Virus record (IMG/VR): IMGVR_UViG_3300025759_000605
Location: 1-26,124 of that record
DNA from: a virus
Strand: one strand, 5' to 3'
Length of the DNA stretch: 26,124 nt
Shown one piece after another: positions 836-23,632 of this stretch. Each line of letters opens with the position of its first letter. The stretch's first letter is position 1. The position numbers were made by a program, and so were the translations under genes. The notes below the pieces were generated by a model that saw nothing but the letters and a program-made list of their open reading frames with translations, did no database searches and was not told the DNA's origin.

Positions 836-1243
836 ATGAAAAAGATAGCAGAAGCAGACAACGTCAACGGCAATTTTGAAAATGCACCAGTAAAAAAGAG
901 GCGAGGTCGACCAGTTGGCAGTAAGTCGAAAGGATCGCCAAAGGTTATTGCACAAAATATCCTCAAGAGACAATTAACGCACGCCTTAAACAGTATGAGC
1001 GATAGAAAGGATAAACCATTGCACCAATTAATTGATAATTACTTAACTGAGGACATAGGTAACATACAAAAGTTTAGCTTCTTATTTCCTAAGGAGAGCA
1101 ATATAGATTTAAAAGGCGGTTCTCTCTTTTCTAATACATTATCAGAAGTTTCAAAACGTATTCAAGATTATAAAAAACCCTCCCTAAAAGAAGCGGACGT
1201 AGTTACAATAGATAATGATATTATAGATATAGAGAGCGATTAA
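836..1243 (+). CDS. AT-hook DNA-binding protein, candidate small terminase subunit
   Basis: The 135-residue product has a strongly basic N-terminal part with an AT-hook-like core (KKRRGRPVGSKSKGSPK, about residues 20-36), which typically binds the minor groove of AT-rich DNA. A helical stretch follows (VIAQNILKRQLTHALNSM) and then an acidic, Ile/Asp-rich tail. The gene lies directly upstream of terL, where tailed phages usually carry the small terminase subunit that recognises packaging DNA. The function is inferred from position and basic charge; no classical TerS fold can be claimed from sequence alone. A purine-rich site (taagga, around 820-825) precedes the ATG. The non-coding stretch that follows would be a natural binding target if it is a packaging protein. 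Confidence 0.75.
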   Translation: MKKIAEADNVNGNFENAPVKKRRGRPVGSKSKGSPKVIAQNILKRQLTHALNSMSDRKDKPLHQLIDNYLTEDIGNIQKFSFLFPKESNIDLKGGSLFSNTLSEVSKRIQDYKKPSLKEADVVTIDNDIIDIESD

Positions 1244-1349: not shown

Positions 1350-1378
1350 TTGACAAGTCTTGAGAAATCACGAACAAT
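1350..1378 (+). promoter_or_regulatory. candidate promoter for the RNA before terL
   Basis: A perfect -35 hexamer TTGACA (1350-1355) is followed after 17 bases by AACAAT (1373-1378), which matches four of six -10 positions. The predicted start, about 1385, falls two bases before the first arm of an 11-bp inverted repeat. That agreement raises the credibility of a -10 box that is weak on its own. Confidence 0.45.
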
Positions 1379-1384
1379 GCAATC

Positions 1385-1510
1385 ATATGAAATAATTATG
1401 TTGTTTTAGAACAACTATCTCCCCCAAAATAATATCGTTCAAAAAAAATTATTTCATTACTGAAAAGGGAAGGGTGCGTTTTAATTCCATTTTTCGTACC
1501 CTTTTTTTTT
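1385..1510 (+). ncRNA. putative structured RNA or attenuator leader upstream of terL
   Basis: No convincing reading frame occupies this stretch, but it is rich in paired elements. Perfect 11-base arms ATGAAATAATT (1387-1397) and AATTATTTCAT (1447-1457) can pair. They enclose a hairpin GTTGTT-TTAG-AACAAC (1400-1415) and a C-run (1421-1425). A strong terminator (1470-1510) follows. With the promoter at 1350-1378 this makes a transcript of about 125 bases whose 5' end coincides with the long stem. It could be a free small RNA, or a leader that attenuates terL and the late operon by partial termination. Boundaries and function are inferred; no known RNA family was recognised. Confidence 0.5.
1470..1510 (+). 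terminator. Rho-independent terminator 22 bases before terL
   Basis: A 9-bp stem (1470-1478 with 1495-1503, one G-T wobble) of AAGGGTGCG and CGTACCCTT has a 16-base loop and runs into nine T's (1502-1510). No promoter could fit between it and the terL start at 1533, so terL must be expressed by read-through or antitermination. Confidence 0.8.
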
Positions 1511-1532: not shown

Positions 1533-2936
1533 ATGAGTAAAGAACAACTATCAGATATATTAGCAGAATTAGCATTAGACCCAGTTATGTTTGTTGAAAC
1601 AATGCTACAGGTAAAACCTGAAAAATGGCAAAGAGAATTTTTACAAAACGTCATGCAGAACCCAAGATGTGCTGTCAAGTCAGGGCATGGCGTAGGTAAG
1701 ACAGCAGTTTTATCTTGGTTGATATTGTGGTGGGTATTTACACGACACCCTTGCAAGGTTGTCTGCACAGCCAATACTGCTCACCAATTATCAGATGTTC
1801 TATGGGCTGAAGCTCAAAAATGGGCAAGACGTTTGCCTGAGAGTTTTTATTCGCAAATGGATATGAAATCCGACAAAATTAATATTGCAGGTTCGACAGA
1901 CTCGTATGCTGTGGCTCGTGTGTCTCGTAGAGAAAACCCAGAAGCCTTACAAGGTTTCCATTCTGAAAACCTCTTGTTTATTATTGATGAGGCATCAGGG
2001 GTAGATGATAAGATATTTGAGGTAGGTGAAGGTTCGTTATCAACACCAGATGCTAAAGTTGTTATGACTGGCAACCCTACTCGTACATCAGGTTATTTTT
2101 TTAATGCGTTTCATGCAATGCGTGACCGTTGGACTAAAATGACTGTAAGCTGTGCTGACTCATCACAAGTATCAAAAGAATTTATTGAGGATATGAACAT
2201 AAAATATGGTTCTGACTCAAACGTATATAGAGTTAGGGTGCTTGGCGAGTTTCCAAAAGCAGAAGATGACACTGTTATACCACTCTATATGGTAGAAAGC
2301 TCTATAGACAGAGATATATCAGTTGACCCCTATGAACCTGTTGTTTGGGGTTTAGATGTCGCCAATTTTGGCTCTGACAGAACCGCATTGTGTAAAAGAC
2401 GTGGTGCTGAGTTAATAGAGCCTGTACGCACATGGCAAGGTAAAGACCTAATGGAAACAGTAGGTATTGTTATGAATGAGTACGAAATATGTAATTATAA
2501 GGACAAACCAACGGATATAATGGTAGATAGTATAGGTATCGGTTCTGGAGTAGCGTCAAGGCTAACCGAATTGGATTTGCCTGCTAGACCCATACAGGTT
2601 TCCGAAAGTCCTGCTCTAAAAACAAAATATATGCGATTGCGAGACGAGCTATGGTTTAGAGCAAGAGAATGGTTTGAAGGGCGTGATGTACGCATTATGC
2701 AAGATGATAAATTAATAGAAGAACTAATAGCTCCTCGTTTTAAATTTACATCTAACGGAAAAATAAAAGTTGAAGCCAAAGACGAGTTTAAAAAAAGATT
2801 AGGTGGTCGTAGCTGTGACTTAGCTGATGCCTTTTGCCTAACCTTTGCACAACAAGCCTTTACAGCTTCTGCTCGTGGAGGTCATACGCATTGGAATAAA
2901 CCAATACAATATAAGGACAGTTCATGGATTACTTAG
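1533..2936 (+). CDS. terL: terminase large subunit (packaging ATPase and nuclease)
   Basis: This 467-residue protein is the motor that pumps DNA into the prohead and cuts the concatemer. The ATPase domain shows an adenine-binding-type W32-Q33, a Walker A motif SGHGVGKT (residues 50-57) and a Walker B strand LLFIIDEAS (147-155, with D152-E153). The RNase H-like nuclease domain shows acidic residues at D275 (WGLDVANFGSD), D332 (IMVDSIGIGSG) and D429/D432 (CDLADAF). Length is typical of the family. There is no good Shine-Dalgarno before ATG 1533, and a six-codon mini-frame (1523-1540, stop included) overlaps the start, so translation may be weak or coupled. The strong terminator at 1470-1510 lies directly upstream. 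The next gene overlaps the 3' end by 13 bases. Confidence 0.97.
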   Translation: MSKEQLSDILAELALDPVMFVETMLQVKPEKWQREFLQNVMQNPRCAVKSGHGVGKTAVLSWLILWWVFTRHPCKVVCTANTAHQLSDVLWAEAQKWARRLPESFYSQMDMKSDKINIAGSTDSYAVARVSRRENPEALQGFHSENLLFIIDEASGVDDKIFEVGEGSLSTPDAKVVMTGNPTRTSGYFFNAFHAMRDRWTKMTVSCADSSQVSKEFIEDMNIKYGSDSNVYRVRVLGEFPKAEDDTVIPLYMVESSIDRDISVDPYEPVVWGLDVANFGSDRTALCKRRGAELIEPVRTWQGKDLMETVGIVMNEYEICNYKDKPTDIMVDSIGIGSGVASRLTELDLPARPIQVSESPALKTKYMRLRDELWFRAREWFEGRDVRIMQDDKLIEELIAPRFKFTSNGKIKVEAKDEFKKRLGGRSCDLADAFCLTFAQQAFTASARGGHTHWNKPIQYKDSSWIT

Positions 2937-9725: not shown

Positions 9726-9754
9726 GGGGAGTAGGGAAACCTACTCCCTTTTTT
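9726..9754 (+). terminator. terminator behind the major capsid gene
   Basis: A perfect 9-bp stem GGGAGTAGG / CCTACTCCC (9727-9735 and 9740-9748) is capped by a GAAA tetraloop and followed by six T's (9749-9754). It starts 11 bases after the capsid stop. Genes on both sides run the same way, so it probably lowers transcription into the tail genes relative to the capsid, or stabilises the 3' end of a capsid message. Confidence 0.88.
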
Positions 9755-13606: not shown

Positions 13607-15175
13607 ATGAGTTTGTTAGTAAACCAAAACGAAGAAGAAAAAAAGAAAGGTTTAGGCGGTCTATTAGGTAATTTAGACAGTCAAAGTTTATTAGCTTTTG
13701 CTGCTTCGTTACAAGAACAAGCTGCTCCTTCTACAACACCACAAGGCGGTTTAAGATTAGCTGCACCTATGTTGGCATACAAACAAGCGAATGAACAACA
13801 AAAACAAAAACAGGCTTTAAATCAATTATTTGAAGCTAGAGGCATACCTACTGATTTACCAACTGATGTTGCATTAAAATTATTAGGAAATAACAGACAA
13901 ACAAAACCAAGCTTTCAAACATTTCAAAATACATCATCTCAGCAAATAAATATAGGTGGGCGAATTATTGAACCTAATGGTACTTTTAATATAGACTCAA
14001 ATACATTTTATGACCCACAAAATCAAAATATAGTTAATGCTTATAATGAAGGGTTAATAAAGCCTTATAAAAATGAAAATCAGCAAACTAAAGCTATAAG
14101 CATTAAAGATTTTAGAAACACAAGTGCAAATCCTATAACTATTAATGGCAGAGTAATTCAACCAAATCAAGCATTTCAATATGATATTAATAGACCAACA
14201 GATGATTTTCAAAAATACTTTGGAGAAGGAGCTATAAATATTTTTGAACCTGTTGCAGTAGATACAGAGCCAATGCGTGTTACTAATTTATCAGATAAAG
14301 ATGTAACATTAGCAGATGGTACAACAATAAAAGGTGGAGCAACAACATCAATATTACAATCACAATTTGCACCTAACCAAAAATTGTTTAATGATGGAAC
14401 ATTGTATAGAGTGGGTGAGGGTAGGGAAGTTCAACCTATGACTTTTATTGACCAGAATGGTAACAGATATGATAGTTTTGTGAAAGATGGTAGAAGGTTA
14501 ATAACTGATGCAAGTGGTCGTCAGGTACCATTAAGTGGATTTATAGAAAAAAATAAAGATTTAAAATTAAAACCAACAACTACTACTGAAATTGGCAAAG
14601 CAACTATACCTGCAACAGATTTAGTAAAACAACAAGACCAATTAATAGCTGATAGAAATAAATTACAGGCTCTTGCAGAATATGCTAGTAATGTTGAAGG
14701 TTCACAACAAGGTCTTGCGTTTTCTATTGGCAATATAACATCTAAATTACAAACTTTTGCTGGTCGAGAAGCAGATAATATAGAAAAATTATATAGAGGT
14801 CGTTTAAGTGAAAACCAAATACAGTCTTTAATAGGTAGATTTAGACTTGAAGTTGTTGGTGGTGGTGTAATGACTGAAAAAGACGCAGAAAGAGTTTTAA
14901 TGGCTTTAGGTGGAGAAGCTGGTGCATTTAGAGATAAAGCTGTTGTTGATAGATTAATTAGAGATATTTTTGAGAGAAGTTGGAATAGCTATAATGCACA
15001 AGTTAGAACTTTTAATAAAACGATAAAGAACCAAAGACAAACAGACCAATTTAGAACATTTGAAACATTTGATACTGTTGATGATATGTATAATACATTA
15101 TTTAAAGAAGCTGATGAAAAATATAGCATAAATACTGAGTTAGATGAAACATATCCTCTATTACCCCCAGCTTAA
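13607..15175 (+). CDS. candidate ejection or internal virion protein with three internal repeats
   Basis: The 522-residue product is Gln/Asn/Thr-rich. Residues 1-100 are helical and Ala/Gln-rich (LLAFAASLQEQAAPSTTPQG). Three similar units of about 50 residues follow at roughly 106-154, 168-214 and 223-269. Each unit has N-[TL]-S, a strand, G-R or G-T, [IV]-x-[PG], and ends in '(N/G)(E/D)G' plus a strand. The remaining part is helical. The gene is the second in a row of three large proteins between tail and fibre genes, which suits an ejection protein, but the repeats could instead be binding modules. Its ribosome binding site overlaps the upstream TAG stop (TAGGAGTAA). Confidence 0.7.
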   Translation: MSLLVNQNEEEKKKGLGGLLGNLDSQSLLAFAASLQEQAAPSTTPQGGLRLAAPMLAYKQANEQQKQKQALNQLFEARGIPTDLPTDVALKLLGNNRQTKPSFQTFQNTSSQQINIGGRIIEPNGTFNIDSNTFYDPQNQNIVNAYNEGLIKPYKNENQQTKAISIKDFRNTSANPITINGRVIQPNQAFQYDINRPTDDFQKYFGEGAINIFEPVAVDTEPMRVTNLSDKDVTLADGTTIKGGATTSILQSQFAPNQKLFNDGTLYRVGEGREVQPMTFIDQNGNRYDSFVKDGRRLITDASGRQVPLSGFIEKNKDLKLKPTTTTEIGKATIPATDLVKQQDQLIADRNKLQALAEYASNVEGSQQGLAFSIGNITSKLQTFAGREADNIEKLYRGRLSENQIQSLIGRFRLEVVGGGVMTEKDAERVLMALGGEAGAFRDKAVVDRLIRDIFERSWNSYNAQVRTFNKTIKNQRQTDQFRTFETFDTVDDMYNTLFKEADEKYSINTELDETYPLLPPA

Positions 15176-15186
15176 AAGGCAAAAAC

Positions 15187-17007
15187 ATGAAAAAAAGATT
15201 TTTAGTTAATAACAAAACAAAGAAAAAAGTAGTTATATATGTTCCTGATAGTTGGGAAAAAAAATATGGAACATTAGATAAAGATAACAAAAATGGATTT
15301 AACTCTAATGAAGAAAGAGAAGCATTATTACAAGTATTAAAATTATCTAAAAATAACAAAGCACCTAATGGATATTTTGTGTCAAAAGGTCATTTTGAAG
15401 ATTTTAAAAGAAGCATACAAAATATGCCTGAATCTTTTGGTCAATTAGCAGTAGATTATAGTAATATAGTTTTACACCCAATACAAACCGCAACAAGCGT
15501 TTATAAATTAGGTAAAGGTGTATTAGAGTTAGTAATTCCAGATTATGTATATAAATCAGACGATCAAGATTTAGCTATTGAATTAGGTAATTTTTTTAAA
15601 AATAGATATGGTTCATTAACAGGTTTAAGAAAAACAATGGTAACAGACCCTGCTGGTTTTCTTGCAGATGTAAGTATGATATTTACTGCTGGAGCAAGTG
15701 GAGCAGCTAAAATACCATCACTTGCAAAACACGCTGAAAAATTAAATAATTTAGCACAAAAAAGTAATTTGATTGACCCTCTTATTGCCTCTGCTACAGG
15801 TGTAAAAAATATTGCAAAAGGTGCAATTAATAAAACACCAGATATTCTTGGTTTTCCATCAGGGGTAGGTGGTGACGCATTAAGAATAAGTTATCAAGCT
15901 GGTCGTGAAGGAGGTAAAAATCAAAAAGTTTTAACTGAAAACATGAGAAACCAAAATCCAAACGCTTACGAAAATATGGCAGATTTACTTAAATTAAAAT
16001 TAAAACAGCATAAAGATTTAAAACAAGCAAATTATAAAGAAGGTATGGGTTCACTATTACTAGGTACAAAAACAATACCTCAACCTGAATTTAACAAAAT
16101 AATAGATGATATAATAAAAAATTTAGATGAATCTACAACTTTTAAAGGTAAAAATAAACCTAAAGAAAGAATAATACCAAGCGATTTACCAGTAAGTCCA
16201 AGAGTAGATAAGATACCAGAAAAAGGTATAGATATGCTTAGAAATGAAAAAGGTATTACTGCAATTAATGATATAAAAGATTTATTAAAAGAATTTAGGT
16301 CAAATCCAAATTTTCATACTGTAGAGTCTTTAGATGTATTAAAAGGAATGATTGACGACTTATATCCTTCAAGAGCAGCAGGTGAATTAGGTAATTATAC
16401 AGAAAGTTTAATTGCTCAAACAAGAAACAAAATTAAAAATAAAATTGTTGAAATAGAACCAGCGTATGCAGATGTAATGGCGGTTTATGAACAAGCTCAT
16501 CAACTAGAAAAAGAACTTATGAAAGCATTTGCAGTAAATAACAAGGCATCAATAGACCAATTATCAAGAAAATTATTTCAAACATTAAGAAATAATCAAA
16601 ATACAAATTTTGGCTCAAGATTAAACACATTAAAACAATTTGATACTGCAGGAGAATTACAAGCTGCTGCAGCTGGTCTTGTCTTGCAAAGTCCAACGCC
16701 TTTAGGTTTTAGAGGTGCTGGTGCAGGTTTGACTGGTCTTTATGGAGTTTCAGCTGGTTTAACTGCACCAGCATTAGGTTTATTAGCAGCGTCAAGTCCA
16801 AGATTAATGGGTGAAGCAAGTAATTTAGCAGGTAGAATTGCTGGTACTGTTAATCAAATGTCACCACCACCACAAGTAACAGGTTTATTAGACGCAATAC
16901 CAGAAAATATAAGACAAGGTGTTTCTGATACAACAGGAATTTTAAAAAGACCTTTAACGGATTTAACTCTATTGGAAGCTAGAGCAATAGAAGAAGAAAA
17001 TAACTAG
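15187..17007 (+). CDS. candidate large ejection protein, 606 residues
   Basis: The protein begins with a very basic stretch (MKKRFLVNNKTKKKVVIYVP). A mixed N-terminal domain follows, then amphipathic and apolar segments (TDPAGFLADVSMIFTAGASG, about residues 155-175). The middle is helical, Lys-rich and long (about 255-500). The C-terminus has an Ala/Gly/Leu-rich apolar region (AAAGLVLQSPTPLGFRGAG to LLAASSPRLMGEASNLAGR, about 495-560). Long helical proteins ending in a Gly/Ala-rich apolar region, placed before the fibre, are usual for ejection proteins that line the channel across the periplasm. No lytic transglycosylase motif is evident. The stop TAG is fused to the ribosome binding site of the fibre gene. 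Confidence 0.68.
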   Translation: MKKRFLVNNKTKKKVVIYVPDSWEKKYGTLDKDNKNGFNSNEEREALLQVLKLSKNNKAPNGYFVSKGHFEDFKRSIQNMPESFGQLAVDYSNIVLHPIQTATSVYKLGKGVLELVIPDYVYKSDDQDLAIELGNFFKNRYGSLTGLRKTMVTDPAGFLADVSMIFTAGASGAAKIPSLAKHAEKLNNLAQKSNLIDPLIASATGVKNIAKGAINKTPDILGFPSGVGGDALRISYQAGREGGKNQKVLTENMRNQNPNAYENMADLLKLKLKQHKDLKQANYKEGMGSLLLGTKTIPQPEFNKIIDDIIKNLDESTTFKGKNKPKERIIPSDLPVSPRVDKIPEKGIDMLRNEKGITAINDIKDLLKEFRSNPNFHTVESLDVLKGMIDDLYPSRAAGELGNYTESLIAQTRNKIKNKIVEIEPAYADVMAVYEQAHQLEKELMKAFAVNNKASIDQLSRKLFQTLRNNQNTNFGSRLNTLKQFDTAGELQAAAAGLVLQSPTPLGFRGAGAGLTGLYGVSAGLTAPALGLLAASSPRLMGEASNLAGRIAGTVNQMSPPPQVTGLLDAIPENIRQGVSDTTGILKRPLTDLTLLEARAIEEENN

Positions 17008-17016
17008 GAGTAAAAC

Positions 17017-20000
17017 ATGGCAAAAACGAAAATATCACAGTTTGATGCAACCGCAGCAAATAATACTGACCTAAATAGTATTAGTATTGCTGAAGGTACA
17101 GCACCATCTAATATTAATAATGCTATTCGTGAACTTATGTCACAACTTGCCGATCTTAATTTAGGCAATGAAGTATTATCTACTCTTAAAATAGACAATT
17201 TACACCTAGATGGTAACACTATTGTTACTTTAGATACTAATGGTGACCTAAACCTTACTCCTAACGGCACAGGAGCTGTTACTATAGCTAAAGCAGACAT
17301 CAATGGTGGTGCAATAGATGGAACACCTATTGGTGCGTCTAGTGCAAGCACAGGAGCTTTCTCTACTTTATCAGCTTCGTCTACTGCTAACTTAGGTTCT
17401 ACTGTAACAATATCAGGTGGTAATATAGATGGCGTTATAGGTGCAAATACTCCTGCAGCTATTACAGGTACAGTTATTACTGCTAATACAAACTTTGCTG
17501 GAGATATCACAGGTAATGTAACAGGAAATGTCACAGGCAACCTAACTGGTAATGTAACAGGAAATGTAACAGGAAATGTAACAGGTGATGTTACAGGAAA
17601 TATTACAGCGTCAAGTGGTACATCAACATTTAACAATGTGACCATAAATGGCACACTTGATATGGATAGTACAACCTCACTAACAATTACAGGACTTGCC
17701 ACGCCCTCTAATCCTACAGATGCAGCTACTAAAAACTATGTTGACACCGAAGTATCAGCATTGGTTGACTCCGCACCTGCAACATTAGATACTCTTAACG
17801 AATTAGCTGCAGCATTAGGTGATGACGCTAGTTTCTCAACAACTGTAACAAATTCAATAGCTACTAAACTACCTCTTGCTGGTGGTACTATGACAGGTGA
17901 TATAAACGCTAATTCTAATACTGTTAGCGGATTAAAAGCACCATCATCTGCAAATGACGCTACAACAAAAACTTATGTAGATACAGCAGACGCACTAAAA
18001 CTTAATTTAAGTGGTGGTACAATGTCAGGTGACATTAATGCAGATAGCAATAAAGTGACAAATCTTGCTACACCAACAAACACAGGTGACGCAACAAGTA
18101 AATCTTATGTTGATAGTATATTAGGTTCAGCAACTTCTGCGGCTGCATCAGCCTCTGCTGCTGCAACTTCGGCAACTTCTGCCGCAACTTCTGCTACTGC
18201 TAGTGAAAATTCCAACATTGCTTCGGCTGCAAGTGCTGCTTCTGCTGCTGCATCATTAGATAGTTTTACAGATATATATTTAGGTGAAAAGTCATCAGCA
18301 CCAACAGTTGACAATGATGGTGACGCTTTAGTAACAGGTGCGTTATATTTTAATACATCATCAAATCAATTATTTGTTTGGAGTGGTTCTGTATGGACAC
18401 AAGCTGCGTTTACAGCAAGTGGATTTTTAAGTGCTAGTAATAACCTATCAGATGTTGATAGTGCATCAACAGCAAGAACAAATTTAGGATTAGCTATTGG
18501 TTCAAATGTACAAGCTCATGACGCTGATTTAGATGCTCTTGCAGGACTAACATCTGCTGCTGACAAAGGCATACAATTTACAGGTAGTGGCACTGCAGGA
18601 ACTTATGATTTAACAAGTGCAGGTAAAGCCTTATTAGATGACGCAGACGCTGCAGCCCAAAGAACAACATTAGGGTTAGGTAGTGCCGCAACATTAACTG
18701 CAGGTACATCAGCTAATAACCTTGTACAATTAGATGGCTCTGCCAAGCTACCAGCAGTCGATGGTTCAGCATTAACAGGCTTAGCATCAGGTGGTACTGT
18801 AAACATGGTTGCAGACGGTGCTATTGCTATTAGAAAACCAGTTATACTTACTGCAACAGGTAAAGCAAAAGAGGTTGCTGAAACAGCAGGAGAAAGTAAT
18901 TTAGATAATGGAAACTATCTAGGCATATCTGCTGAAGCAATATCCGATACTGCTACAGGTAAAATAAATGTTATTGGTGGTACAAGCACAGGACATTCTT
19001 CTCTTACTATTGGCAACCATTACTTTACAAATGGTGCAGGCACTATTGGATTAACAGGTAGTTCTACAGGAGAACAATATGTAGGTAGGGCTATTTCAGC
19101 AACAGAAATACAATTATTAGAAAACGAAGGTTATCTATATGGTACTGCAGAAGGTGCAGTAACGGCAGGTAAACCTGTAATGGTAGAAACTGATGGTGAA
19201 TTTAAACAAATAGGAAATGACTCTACAGCAGTTTCTTATTCTGTGGGTTCACAACAAACGATAAAAGATACAGATACTGTTCAATCTAATGGTATTACAT
19301 ATGATGAAGCATTAGGTTATTTTGTAGTATTTTATCAAGAAGTAAGTAGCTCAAGTTTTGGGTATGGAAGAACATATACTGAAAGCAGTAAATCATTTAC
19401 ACTTTCACAAAGTTTAGGAGCATTTCATAATAGCACTACTGTAATTCTTGATAGTGTTTATGTTGGAAATAGCACTCATGTTGTTTTTTATAAAGATAAT
19501 AATGATTATCTAGCAGCAAGGGCTGTTACAATAGCTAGTGATGGCACAGGTACTTATGGAACAGAAAATATTTTATTAAGTAGCACAATAGAAAAATATG
19601 GAAGTGCTTATTATGATACTAGCAAAAGTGCTGCTGTAGTATGTTATACAACAAGTACAGCTCAAGCAATGGCAATTACTGTTTCAGGCACAACTATTAC
19701 AGCAGGTACAGCAGTTAGTTCAGGAGATGCTCCATCTGGTTCATATAACACTCATCAACATCATGCAACTGTTTATGATGAAACTAATAATATAGGTGTT
19801 TGGGCGTATGAGGGAGTATATCTTGGTGTGCGTACAATAAGTTTAAGTGGAACAGGGAATAGAACAATAACACTTAATACAAGAACTTGGGCTGTTAGTG
19901 CAGGTGGTTTATCTCCTACAAAAGATAGTTTTGCTTATGACCCTGTTTCTGAAAAATGTTTTTTAATGTATGTTGATGAAGCTAATACCGATATAGATGG

Positions 20001-20601
20001 AGTAGTTATAACTGTATCAGGAACAGATAATACTGTAAGTGCAGGCACTCCTGCTGAAATAGATGCACATAACCCTTTTACTGGAAATTTTAGAGGTGGT
20101 ATTGCAGCTAGTGGTTCTGCTCAAGGTGGTATATCTATTTTTTGGAAAAATGATAACACTTATATTAGAGGTGCTGTTGCTACAATAAGCGACACAAGTT
20201 TTTCTGTTGCTAATTCAGCAGATTTAAATTCTGAAGCTATTGACTCACATCAAATGAGTGTAGCTTACAAAACTACTACTAGAAGTAATTCAGTAATTTA
20301 TGTATCAAGTGCAAGTGATGAATTAGAGCAAGTAACTCATGTTCCAAATGGAACAGTTACAGAAACAAATATGCCAAGTGATGGAGAAAGTTATATAGGT
20401 ATAGCCACAAAAACAGTTGCAGACGATGCCCAAGCCGAAGTTGCAACATTTGGGCAAATTGATGCTCAACAAAGTGGACTTACAGCAGGACAAAAATATT
20501 TTGTGCAAGATGATGGTAGTTTAGGAACAAGTGCAAGTTCTACAGCAACAATGGTAGCAGGAAAAGCATTGTCTGCTACAAAATTATTAATTAGTGAATA
20601 A
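17017..20601 (+). CDS. tail fibre / receptor-binding protein, 1194 residues
   Basis: This is the longest gene here. Residues 1-45 (AKTKISQFDATAANNTDLNS onward, to AIRELMSQL) form a virion-attachment-like head. Residues 163-198 hold nine tandem [ND]-[VIL]-T-G units. About 222-366 hold three copies of the fibre module '[LT]GGTM(T/S)GDIN...ATPx..DA(A/T)(T/S)K.YVD', common in phage fibres. About 369-415 is an Ala/Ser linker. A beta domain at about 596-702 is repeated at about 709-748 plus 1124-1194. A propeller-like region (about 749-1122, many 'x-V-V-x-Y' strands) sits between the two halves of the second copy. The role is receptor binding, probably through the propeller. A TAGGAGTAA ribosome binding site supports the start. 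Confidence 0.9.
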   Translation: MAKTKISQFDATAANNTDLNSISIAEGTAPSNINNAIRELMSQLADLNLGNEVLSTLKIDNLHLDGNTIVTLDTNGDLNLTPNGTGAVTIAKADINGGAIDGTPIGASSASTGAFSTLSASSTANLGSTVTISGGNIDGVIGANTPAAITGTVITANTNFAGDITGNVTGNVTGNLTGNVTGNVTGNVTGDVTGNITASSGTSTFNNVTINGTLDMDSTTSLTITGLATPSNPTDAATKNYVDTEVSALVDSAPATLDTLNELAAALGDDASFSTTVTNSIATKLPLAGGTMTGDINANSNTVSGLKAPSSANDATTKTYVDTADALKLNLSGGTMSGDINADSNKVTNLATPTNTGDATSKSYVDSILGSATSAAASASAAATSATSAATSATASENSNIASAASAASAAASLDSFTDIYLGEKSSAPTVDNDGDALVTGALYFNTSSNQLFVWSGSVWTQAAFTASGFLSASNNLSDVDSASTARTNLGLAIGSNVQAHDADLDALAGLTSAADKGIQFTGSGTAGTYDLTSAGKALLDDADAAAQRTTLGLGSAATLTAGTSANNLVQLDGSAKLPAVDGSALTGLASGGTVNMVADGAIAIRKPVILTATGKAKEVAETAGESNLDNGNYLGISAEAISDTATGKINVIGGTSTGHSSLTIGNHYFTNGAGTIGLTGSSTGEQYVGRAISATEIQLLENEGYLYGTAEGAVTAGKPVMVETDGEFKQIGNDSTAVSYSVGSQQTIKDTDTVQSNGITYDEALGYFVVFYQEVSSSSFGYGRTYTESSKSFTLSQSLGAFHNSTTVILDSVYVGNSTHVVFYKDNNDYLAARAVTIASDGTGTYGTENILLSSTIEKYGSAYYDTSKSAAVVCYTTSTAQAMAITVSGTTITAGTAVSSGDAPSGSYNTHQHHATVYDETNNIGVWAYEGVYLGVRTISLSGTGNRTITLNTRTWAVSAGGLSPTKDSFAYDPVSEKCFLMYVDEANTDIDGVVITVSGTDNTVSAGTPAEIDAHNPFTGNFRGGIAASGSAQGGISIFWKNDNTYIRGAVATISDTSFSVANSADLNSEAIDSHQMSVAYKTTTRSNSVIYVSSASDELEQVTHVPNGTVTETNMPSDGESYIGIATKTVADDAQAEVATFGQIDAQQSGLTAGQKYFVQDDGSLGTSASSTATMVAGKALSATKLLISE
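17503..17610 (+). repeat. nine 12-base tandem units coding for [ND]-[VIL]-T-G
   Basis: Nine in-frame 12-base units of the type aatgtaacagga follow each other inside the fibre gene, three of them almost identical (around 17551-17586). They code for a Thr-Gly-Asn-Val zigzag, expected to form a regular beta-helical or triple-stranded shaft. Such exact repeats can change copy number by slippage, and so could change fibre length. Confidence 0.85.
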
Positions 20602-23338: not shown

Positions 23339-23632
23339 TTATCTTTTACAATCCTCATAAACAGCTTGATATTTATTAACAAGTTCTGGCTTTCTTATTT
23401 GTATTTCTCGTATGCCATGAATAACACTTGTATGATCTTTGTCATACTTATTGCCAATCTCAACTAAACTTAATATTGAGTTTGTTTTTAATAAATTAAA
23501 TATTAACCATCTAGCTATGGACAGTTCTTTTACCCTTCTGCGTGATATTAAATCAATAGACGATACATTAAAATCATCACATATCTTTTCTATCGTCTTA
23601 TCTAAACAATCTTTATTTCTTAATTTGTTCAT
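23339..23632 (-). CDS. free-standing DnaA domain IV (DNA-binding domain)
   Basis: The 97-residue protein consists of little more than the C-terminal domain of the DnaA initiator: a helical N-terminus, S30-R31-R32-R33 and SIARWLIFNLL (residues 38-48), and the signature IGNKYDKDHTSVIHGIREI with D66-H67-T68 (DHT.V), which reads DnaA boxes in the host protein. AAA+ ATPase domain III and domain I are absent, so it cannot act as a full initiator. It might bind DnaA boxes to compete with or mimic host DnaA, or mark a phage origin. It is the last gene of the leftward operon and overlaps the DUF3310 gene by 20 bases. Confidence 0.9.
   Translation of the reverse strand: MNKLRNKDCLDKTIEKICDDFNVSSIDLISRRRVKELSIARWLIFNLLKTNSILSLVEIGNKYDKDHTSVIHGIREIQIRKPELVNKYQAVYEDCKR

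Follow-up and report, generated by a model that had tools for sequence, protein, structure and literature searches.

Gene setting of the leader

The window, a virus record of 26 kb (26,124 nucleotides) that was analysed over its whole length, carries terS, terL and the genes for an SU10-like portal and a major head protein on the + strand, while SSB and Sak genes lie on the - strand at its right end. The elements discussed below are all on the + strand, in and around the 289-nt intergenic region before terL:

836..1243, + strand: putative terS (small terminase subunit), upstream of the leader unit, with homologues at the same position in G001, G002, G003 and G009
1350..1378, + strand: late promoter, with TTGACA as -35 (1350-1355), a 17-nt spacer and AACAAT as -10 (1373-1378); predicted start at about 1385
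1365..1371, + strand: invariant AAATCAC in the -35/-10 spacer, a candidate antiterminator loading site (putative function)
1387..1397, + strand: 5' arm of stem P1, ATGAAATAATT, beginning 2-3 nt past the predicted start; covariation in five lineages
1400..1415, + strand: nested 6-bp hairpin P1a, GTTGTT-TTAG-AACAAC; clade A only, with G-C to G-U changes that keep the pairing in L014 and L023
1418..1425, + strand: P1 loop motif TCTCCCCC, CU-rich and single-stranded; in alignments CTCCC is kept in clades A and B
1447..1457, + strand: 3' arm of P1, AATTATTTCAT; covariation
1460..1467, + strand: mini-hairpin CU-GAAA-AG, from sequence comparison; too short for testing alone
1470..1510, + strand: P2 hairpin and U-tract, an intrinsic terminator 22 nt before terL; dG -11.8 with the U-tract
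1533..2936, + strand: terL, large terminase subunit, the first late-operon gene (PHROG phrog_2 terminase large subunit, E 9.7e-50)

The putative terS has no match above cut-off in Pfam or PHROG. Between it and the promoter, at 1244-1312, lies a C-run tract followed by TGTATATATGTATACC, a candidate cos/pac site. The C-run element is also found upstream of terL in L353-L381, L392, L062 and L072, takes the form C8...GGGGCGG followed by TATATATGTATATACC in distant relatives, and is conserved close to terS/terL also in phages that lack the leader.

A sequence-only reading of this DNA had proposed a TTGACA -35 with AACAAT 17 nt on, perfect 11-nt arms at the predicted start and a 9-bp terminator with nine T's ending at 1510, and direct reading of the sequence bears out each of these. 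The P2 stem pairs AAGGGTGCG (1470-1478) with CGTACCCTT (1495-1503) around a conserved CCATTTT loop, and two of the nine T's (1502-1510) lie inside the stem. With regard to the arms, shuffling adds its own support: when the intergenic region was shuffled, perfect 11-nt inverted repeats with loops of at most 60 nt arose in 13 of 1000 cases, and in 2 of 2000 if the repeat had to start at the predicted +1. The fold of 1385-1515 reaches -28.5 kcal/mol, compared with -16.3 +/- 3.2 in dinucleotide shuffles (z = -3.9), none of the 200 being as stable. The 6-bp hairpin proposed at 1400-1415 is also there, limited to the window's own clade. It is thus confirmed that promoter, arms, nested hairpin and terminator are all present and are unlikely to have come together by chance. 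No open frame crosses the leader on either strand, in agreement with the claim that no convincing frame covers 1385-1510, and the suggested comparison with Rfam, run on the whole window, returned 0 matches above the gathering threshold.

A leader RNA conserved by pairing

Relatives were collected by a TerL scan of IMG/VR, which was repeated from two other queries. The scan returns one cluster at 81% identity or more (clades A and B), followed by a gap down to below 60%, and the more distant phages with 56-58% TerL identity are referred to as clade C. The TerL of the window groups with that of all these relatives and has no relative among GTDB genomes; the nearest isolate by TerL, C72C1, is not close (59%), and a blastn search against phages gave no match.

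Among about 50 IMG/VR relatives the arm sequence differs completely between lineages and the pairing is maintained, which indicates, on comparative grounds, that the leader is a real structured RNA. Compensating changes in the arms had been set beforehand as the observation on which this would stand or fall, and they were found, P1 having changed in at least five lineages with its pairing kept. Throughout clades A and B, P1 starts between +1 and +3, after a TTGACA/AAATCRC promoter. As MAFFT failed to register arms of differing lengths across clades, P1 was assessed by arm swapping and by a hand alignment. The latter, with 10 columns that carry double-sided changes and keep their pairing, was built to pair, so that the swap constitutes the independent evidence: the native assignment of P1 arms ranked first of 120 permutations (-80.9 compared with a derangement mean of -44.8), as did that of the P2 arms (-99.5 compared with -57.2). 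Furthermore, RNAalifold identified P2 from a plain, structure-free MAFFT alignment, in which it covaries; 6 of its 12 pairs have changed on both sides, and 95.6% of cells are paired, against 82% when shuffled and 51-68% when slid. The mini-hairpin varies as CC-GAAA-GG in L017 and as CCUUGCAAGG or ACCUCUUGAGGU in clade B. When a covariance model is trained on clade A alone, it recovers the L029 element of clade B in the corresponding position (E 0.002) and scores the other clade B elements weakly; the window, G001 and G002, all members of its own clade, have one match each. The leader RNA is thus a family that covariation supports and that Rfam does not contain.

Two further pairings were considered and discarded. 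A pseudoknot between the P1 and P2 loops can be drawn in clade B with 7-9 complementary bases (AAAAUGG/CCAUUUU; shuffle p 0.01-0.2 per lineage), and nothing of the kind appears in clade A (p 0.19-0.90). An antiterminator pairing of CUCCC with GGGG, on inspection, is not conserved.

The leader unit is present in single copy, fixed before terL. In clade A and L026 it lies 3' of terS and the C-rich tract, and in L029, L038, L031 and L040 promoter, RNA and terL are still together although a different sequence precedes the promoter. Since the unit stays with terL while its upstream surroundings change, it would be part of terL transcription rather than a terS-adjacent packaging site. Packaging sites are often located between terS and terL, and this position is what speaks for a DNA element, be it a cos/pac site or a cruciform. 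Such a reading is nonetheless highly improbable, given the G-U pairs and the fixed start relative to the promoter, which indicate RNA, the several clade B phages that keep the unit in a different upstream neighbourhood, and the separate C-run element, which is a better candidate for the packaging site.

The constancy of the CTCCC loop amid varying stems raises another alternative, that of a trans-acting phage sRNA of about 125 nt whose CU-rich loop would pair with Shine-Dalgarno sequences, read-through into terL being incidental. The loop recalls the CCUCCUCCC loops of rhizobial anti-SD sRNAs, which also show a conserved CU-rich loop amid variable stems; those RNAs, however, are bacterial, act in trans and carry several loops each (PMC3927594). 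A single-copy unit fixed before terL is not what this alternative would lead one to expect, and no discrete 3' end is expected in clade B, which has no U-tract. We consider it unlikely, slightly more so than the put-like reading discussed below.

Promoter, terminator and gene order

The TTGACA -35 is invariant and the spacing is kept in all clade A and B relatives, with a weak -10, and such a promoter occurs just once in each genome tested. Promoter-like sites overall are no commoner than chance (29 compared with 25.8), and the promoter claim therefore rests on conservation. Matches to the promoter pattern outside the clade, in DNA pattern scans, were coding-region or other chance matches only. 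The region of the start is AT-rich, which leaves -10-like matches there uninformative as signs of a promoter-proximal sigma-dependent pause. Within the -35/-10 spacer AAATCRC is the sole stretch conserved in both clade A and clade B, and by analogy it is a plausible candidate for an antiterminator loading site, at the position of the lambda QBE and the GafZ ZBE.

No promoter was found in the 22 nt from the terminator to terL, and any promoter that feeds terL in the window must pass the terminator. The late strand of the window carries few strong intrinsic terminators, only three (734-754, 1470-1503 and 9726-9749), and in near-complete clade A and C genomes the terminator before terL is among one to three. 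The third of those in the window, at 9726-9749, lies directly 3' of the major head protein gene, within the late operon.

In clade C a strong intrinsic terminator is found 22-63 nt before terL, and the same order recurs with unrelated leader sequences: a TTGAC promoter, a stem near +1, a CU-rich stretch, an intrinsic terminator and terL. An arrangement in which an intrinsic terminator separates the late promoter from the late genes is thus seen in the window and in clades A and C, but not in clade B. It follows from this anatomy that, in clades A and C, any upstream transcription entering terL must cross a terminator. Clade B (G003) keeps the promoter and P1/P2 but has no U-tract after P2, whose end lies 6-17 nt upstream of the terL start. 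Termination there would accordingly be non-canonical, and the conserved role of the RNA may be another one; the retention of the structure without the U-tract leaves room for an RNA-borne function.

Two alternatives draw on clade B. The leader could act after transcription, by protecting the 5' end of the late mRNA, controlling terL translation or directing processing, and would then not switch transcription at all. Stems at the 5' end are known to stabilise mRNA, and the closeness of P2 to the terL start in clade B would suit such a role; the strong U-tract terminators of clades A and C are, however, hard to explain without transcriptional gating, and this alternative seems distinctly unlikely. 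The other is a factor-independent antitermination RNA, a leader that modifies RNA polymerase as HK022 put does, with the terminator only partial. In its favour, conservation is stronger for the RNA structure than for the terminator, clade B having P1/P2 without the U-tract, and the stem lies at +1, much as putL, a structured RNA with two stem-loops, lies just downstream of its own phage promoter (PMC9378689). Nevertheless, put sits in early operons, measures about 70 nt and acts without protein (PMC9378689), and a candidate protein is encoded in the same genomes as the leader. This alternative, too, is rather unlikely.

A DUF6456-like candidate antiterminator

The known Q families PF03589 and PF06530 are absent from the records searched, the window record being incomplete, and a search with PF06323 gave no match in the records, nor in the controls. 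Comparison of near-complete genomes instead revealed an early gene of about 160 aa in clades A and B and in both clade C genomes compared. Encoded on the late strand 5' of terL, at a distance of 1.4-2.9 kb in clades A and B, it is, terS apart, the only common non-structural late-strand gene upstream of terL when clades A and B are set against both clade C genomes. The clade C proteins score above the PF20057 (DUF6456) cut-off in 7 of 19 records (7 of 16 members), the clade A members themselves do not match PF20057 and are linked to DUF6456 by homology via clades B and C, and the same search of control genomes gave a match in Caulobacter only.

In the AlphaFold model of the clade A protein the C-terminal part is confident, and its top 12 matches are sigma region 4, the best with Z 7.3 and 1.7 A over 62 residues, below the Z of 8 advised by the tool; Foldseek alone gave no significant match to the model. 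This clade A member is thus predicted to carry a sigma region-4 domain at its C-terminus, as published for GafZ. Queried with the DUF6456-like proteins, tblastn found nothing in 50,697 phage records, and no solved structure or NCBIfam name was found for them. DUF6456 is the annotation given to GafA homologues (PMC9638019, PMC9765227). GafZ, a homologue of the C-terminal part of GafA, has been demonstrated to act as an antiterminator: it bypasses terminators and binds between -10 and -35, at a palindrome that it requires (PMC11150451).

The near-complete relatives without the DUF6456-like protein (G010, G019 and C72C1) are also without a terminator before terL, with the exception of G020/G021, where the terminator is present and the protein was not detected. 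Records that start less than about 1.6 kb before terL, the window included, are not scorable for this gene; the window's own phage probably carries it, the contig ending before its expected place.

On the - strand of the window, 23339-23632 encodes a 97-aa protein made up solely of DnaA domain IV (PF08299). The N-terminal domain of GafA is DnaA-like, but the PF08299 gene is also found in relatives without the DUF6456 protein.

A probable attenuated late-operon leader

The region is probably a control leader of the late operon, gated by its terminator and likely read through with the help of a GafZ-like (DUF6456) antiterminator. As anatomy, the leader with its terminator is well supported; that a DUF6456-like protein regulates it is a hypothesis with strong, though indirect, support. 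Between the two options offered by the sequence-only reading, the evidence favours a leader in which a terminator gates terL and the late operon, its order recurring in distant phages; a phage small RNA is compatible with it as the default product of the gated unit.

The host sigma-70 RNA polymerase would start at about 1385 and transcribe P1 at the extreme 5' end, the CU-rich loop, the mini-hairpin and P2. In the window's clade, P2 and the U-tract would then terminate transcription, presumably at about 1510, leaving by default an RNA of about 125 nt, with terL and the late operon of about 20 kb off. Late in infection, RNA polymerase would read through into terL: a phage-encoded GafZ-like (DUF6456) protein would load at the promoter, plausibly on AAATCRC, and render the polymerase resistant to terminators, in the manner of Q at lambda pR'.

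Such a leader is most likely of the lambda pR'-tR' kind. In common with lambda pR', 6S RNA, tR' and Q, there are a late promoter, a short RNA and an intrinsic terminator to be read through, as well as a candidate regulator gene upstream (in relatives) and an invariant -35/-10 motif that is a candidate counterpart of the QBE. The differences are that neither of the two known Q families was found in the records searched, PF06323 being uninformative, that the phage leader has a covarying 5' stem, and that its terminator lies directly before terL. The control of gene transfer agents (GTAs) by GafY/GafZ in Caulobacter and GafA in Rhodobacter shares with these phages a DUF6456 family protein with a predicted sigma-4-like domain, and AAATCRC stands where GafZ binds, between -10 and -35, to bypass terminators (PMC11150451). 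Unlike in the GTAs, this is a free phage, the terminator precedes the first gene rather than following it, and no GafY partner was identified, the DnaA domain IV protein not tracking the DUF6456 gene. A literature search for terminase-linked RNAs or put/Q parallels yielded nothing useful.

A bolder version, which we put forward as tentative and on balance unlikely, is that the phage switch is a cousin or ancestor of the GTA switch, in which a GafZ-type (DUF6456) antiterminator would work with an undescribed leader RNA inside the antitermination complex. The RNA is placed in the complex because clade B keeps it after U-tract loss.

The leader would offer a concrete, testable late switch for abundant uncultured marine phages and a possible role for phage DUF6456 proteins, which are of unknown function in PHROGs. 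It would also link GTA regulation to phages, as GafZ, the antiterminator of domesticated particles, would have working free-phage relatives, each with a target promoter and a terminator next to terL.

Other genes of the window and its relatives

The tail fibre encoded at 17017-20601 of the window contains consecutive GN(V/L)T repeats (TGNVTGNVTGNLTGNVTGNVTGNVTGDVTGN), and its homologue differs greatly in size among relatives, from 851 to 1986 aa. The early operon of G003 (clade B) includes a Mom-like DNA modification protein (L346:15895-16593, PF25680, E 2.6e-67). Two large early ORFs of 624 and 305 aa lie on the - strand of G001 (L347:13187-15061 and 15049-15966), the shorter one being Asn/Thr-rich, and both are conserved in clades A and B.
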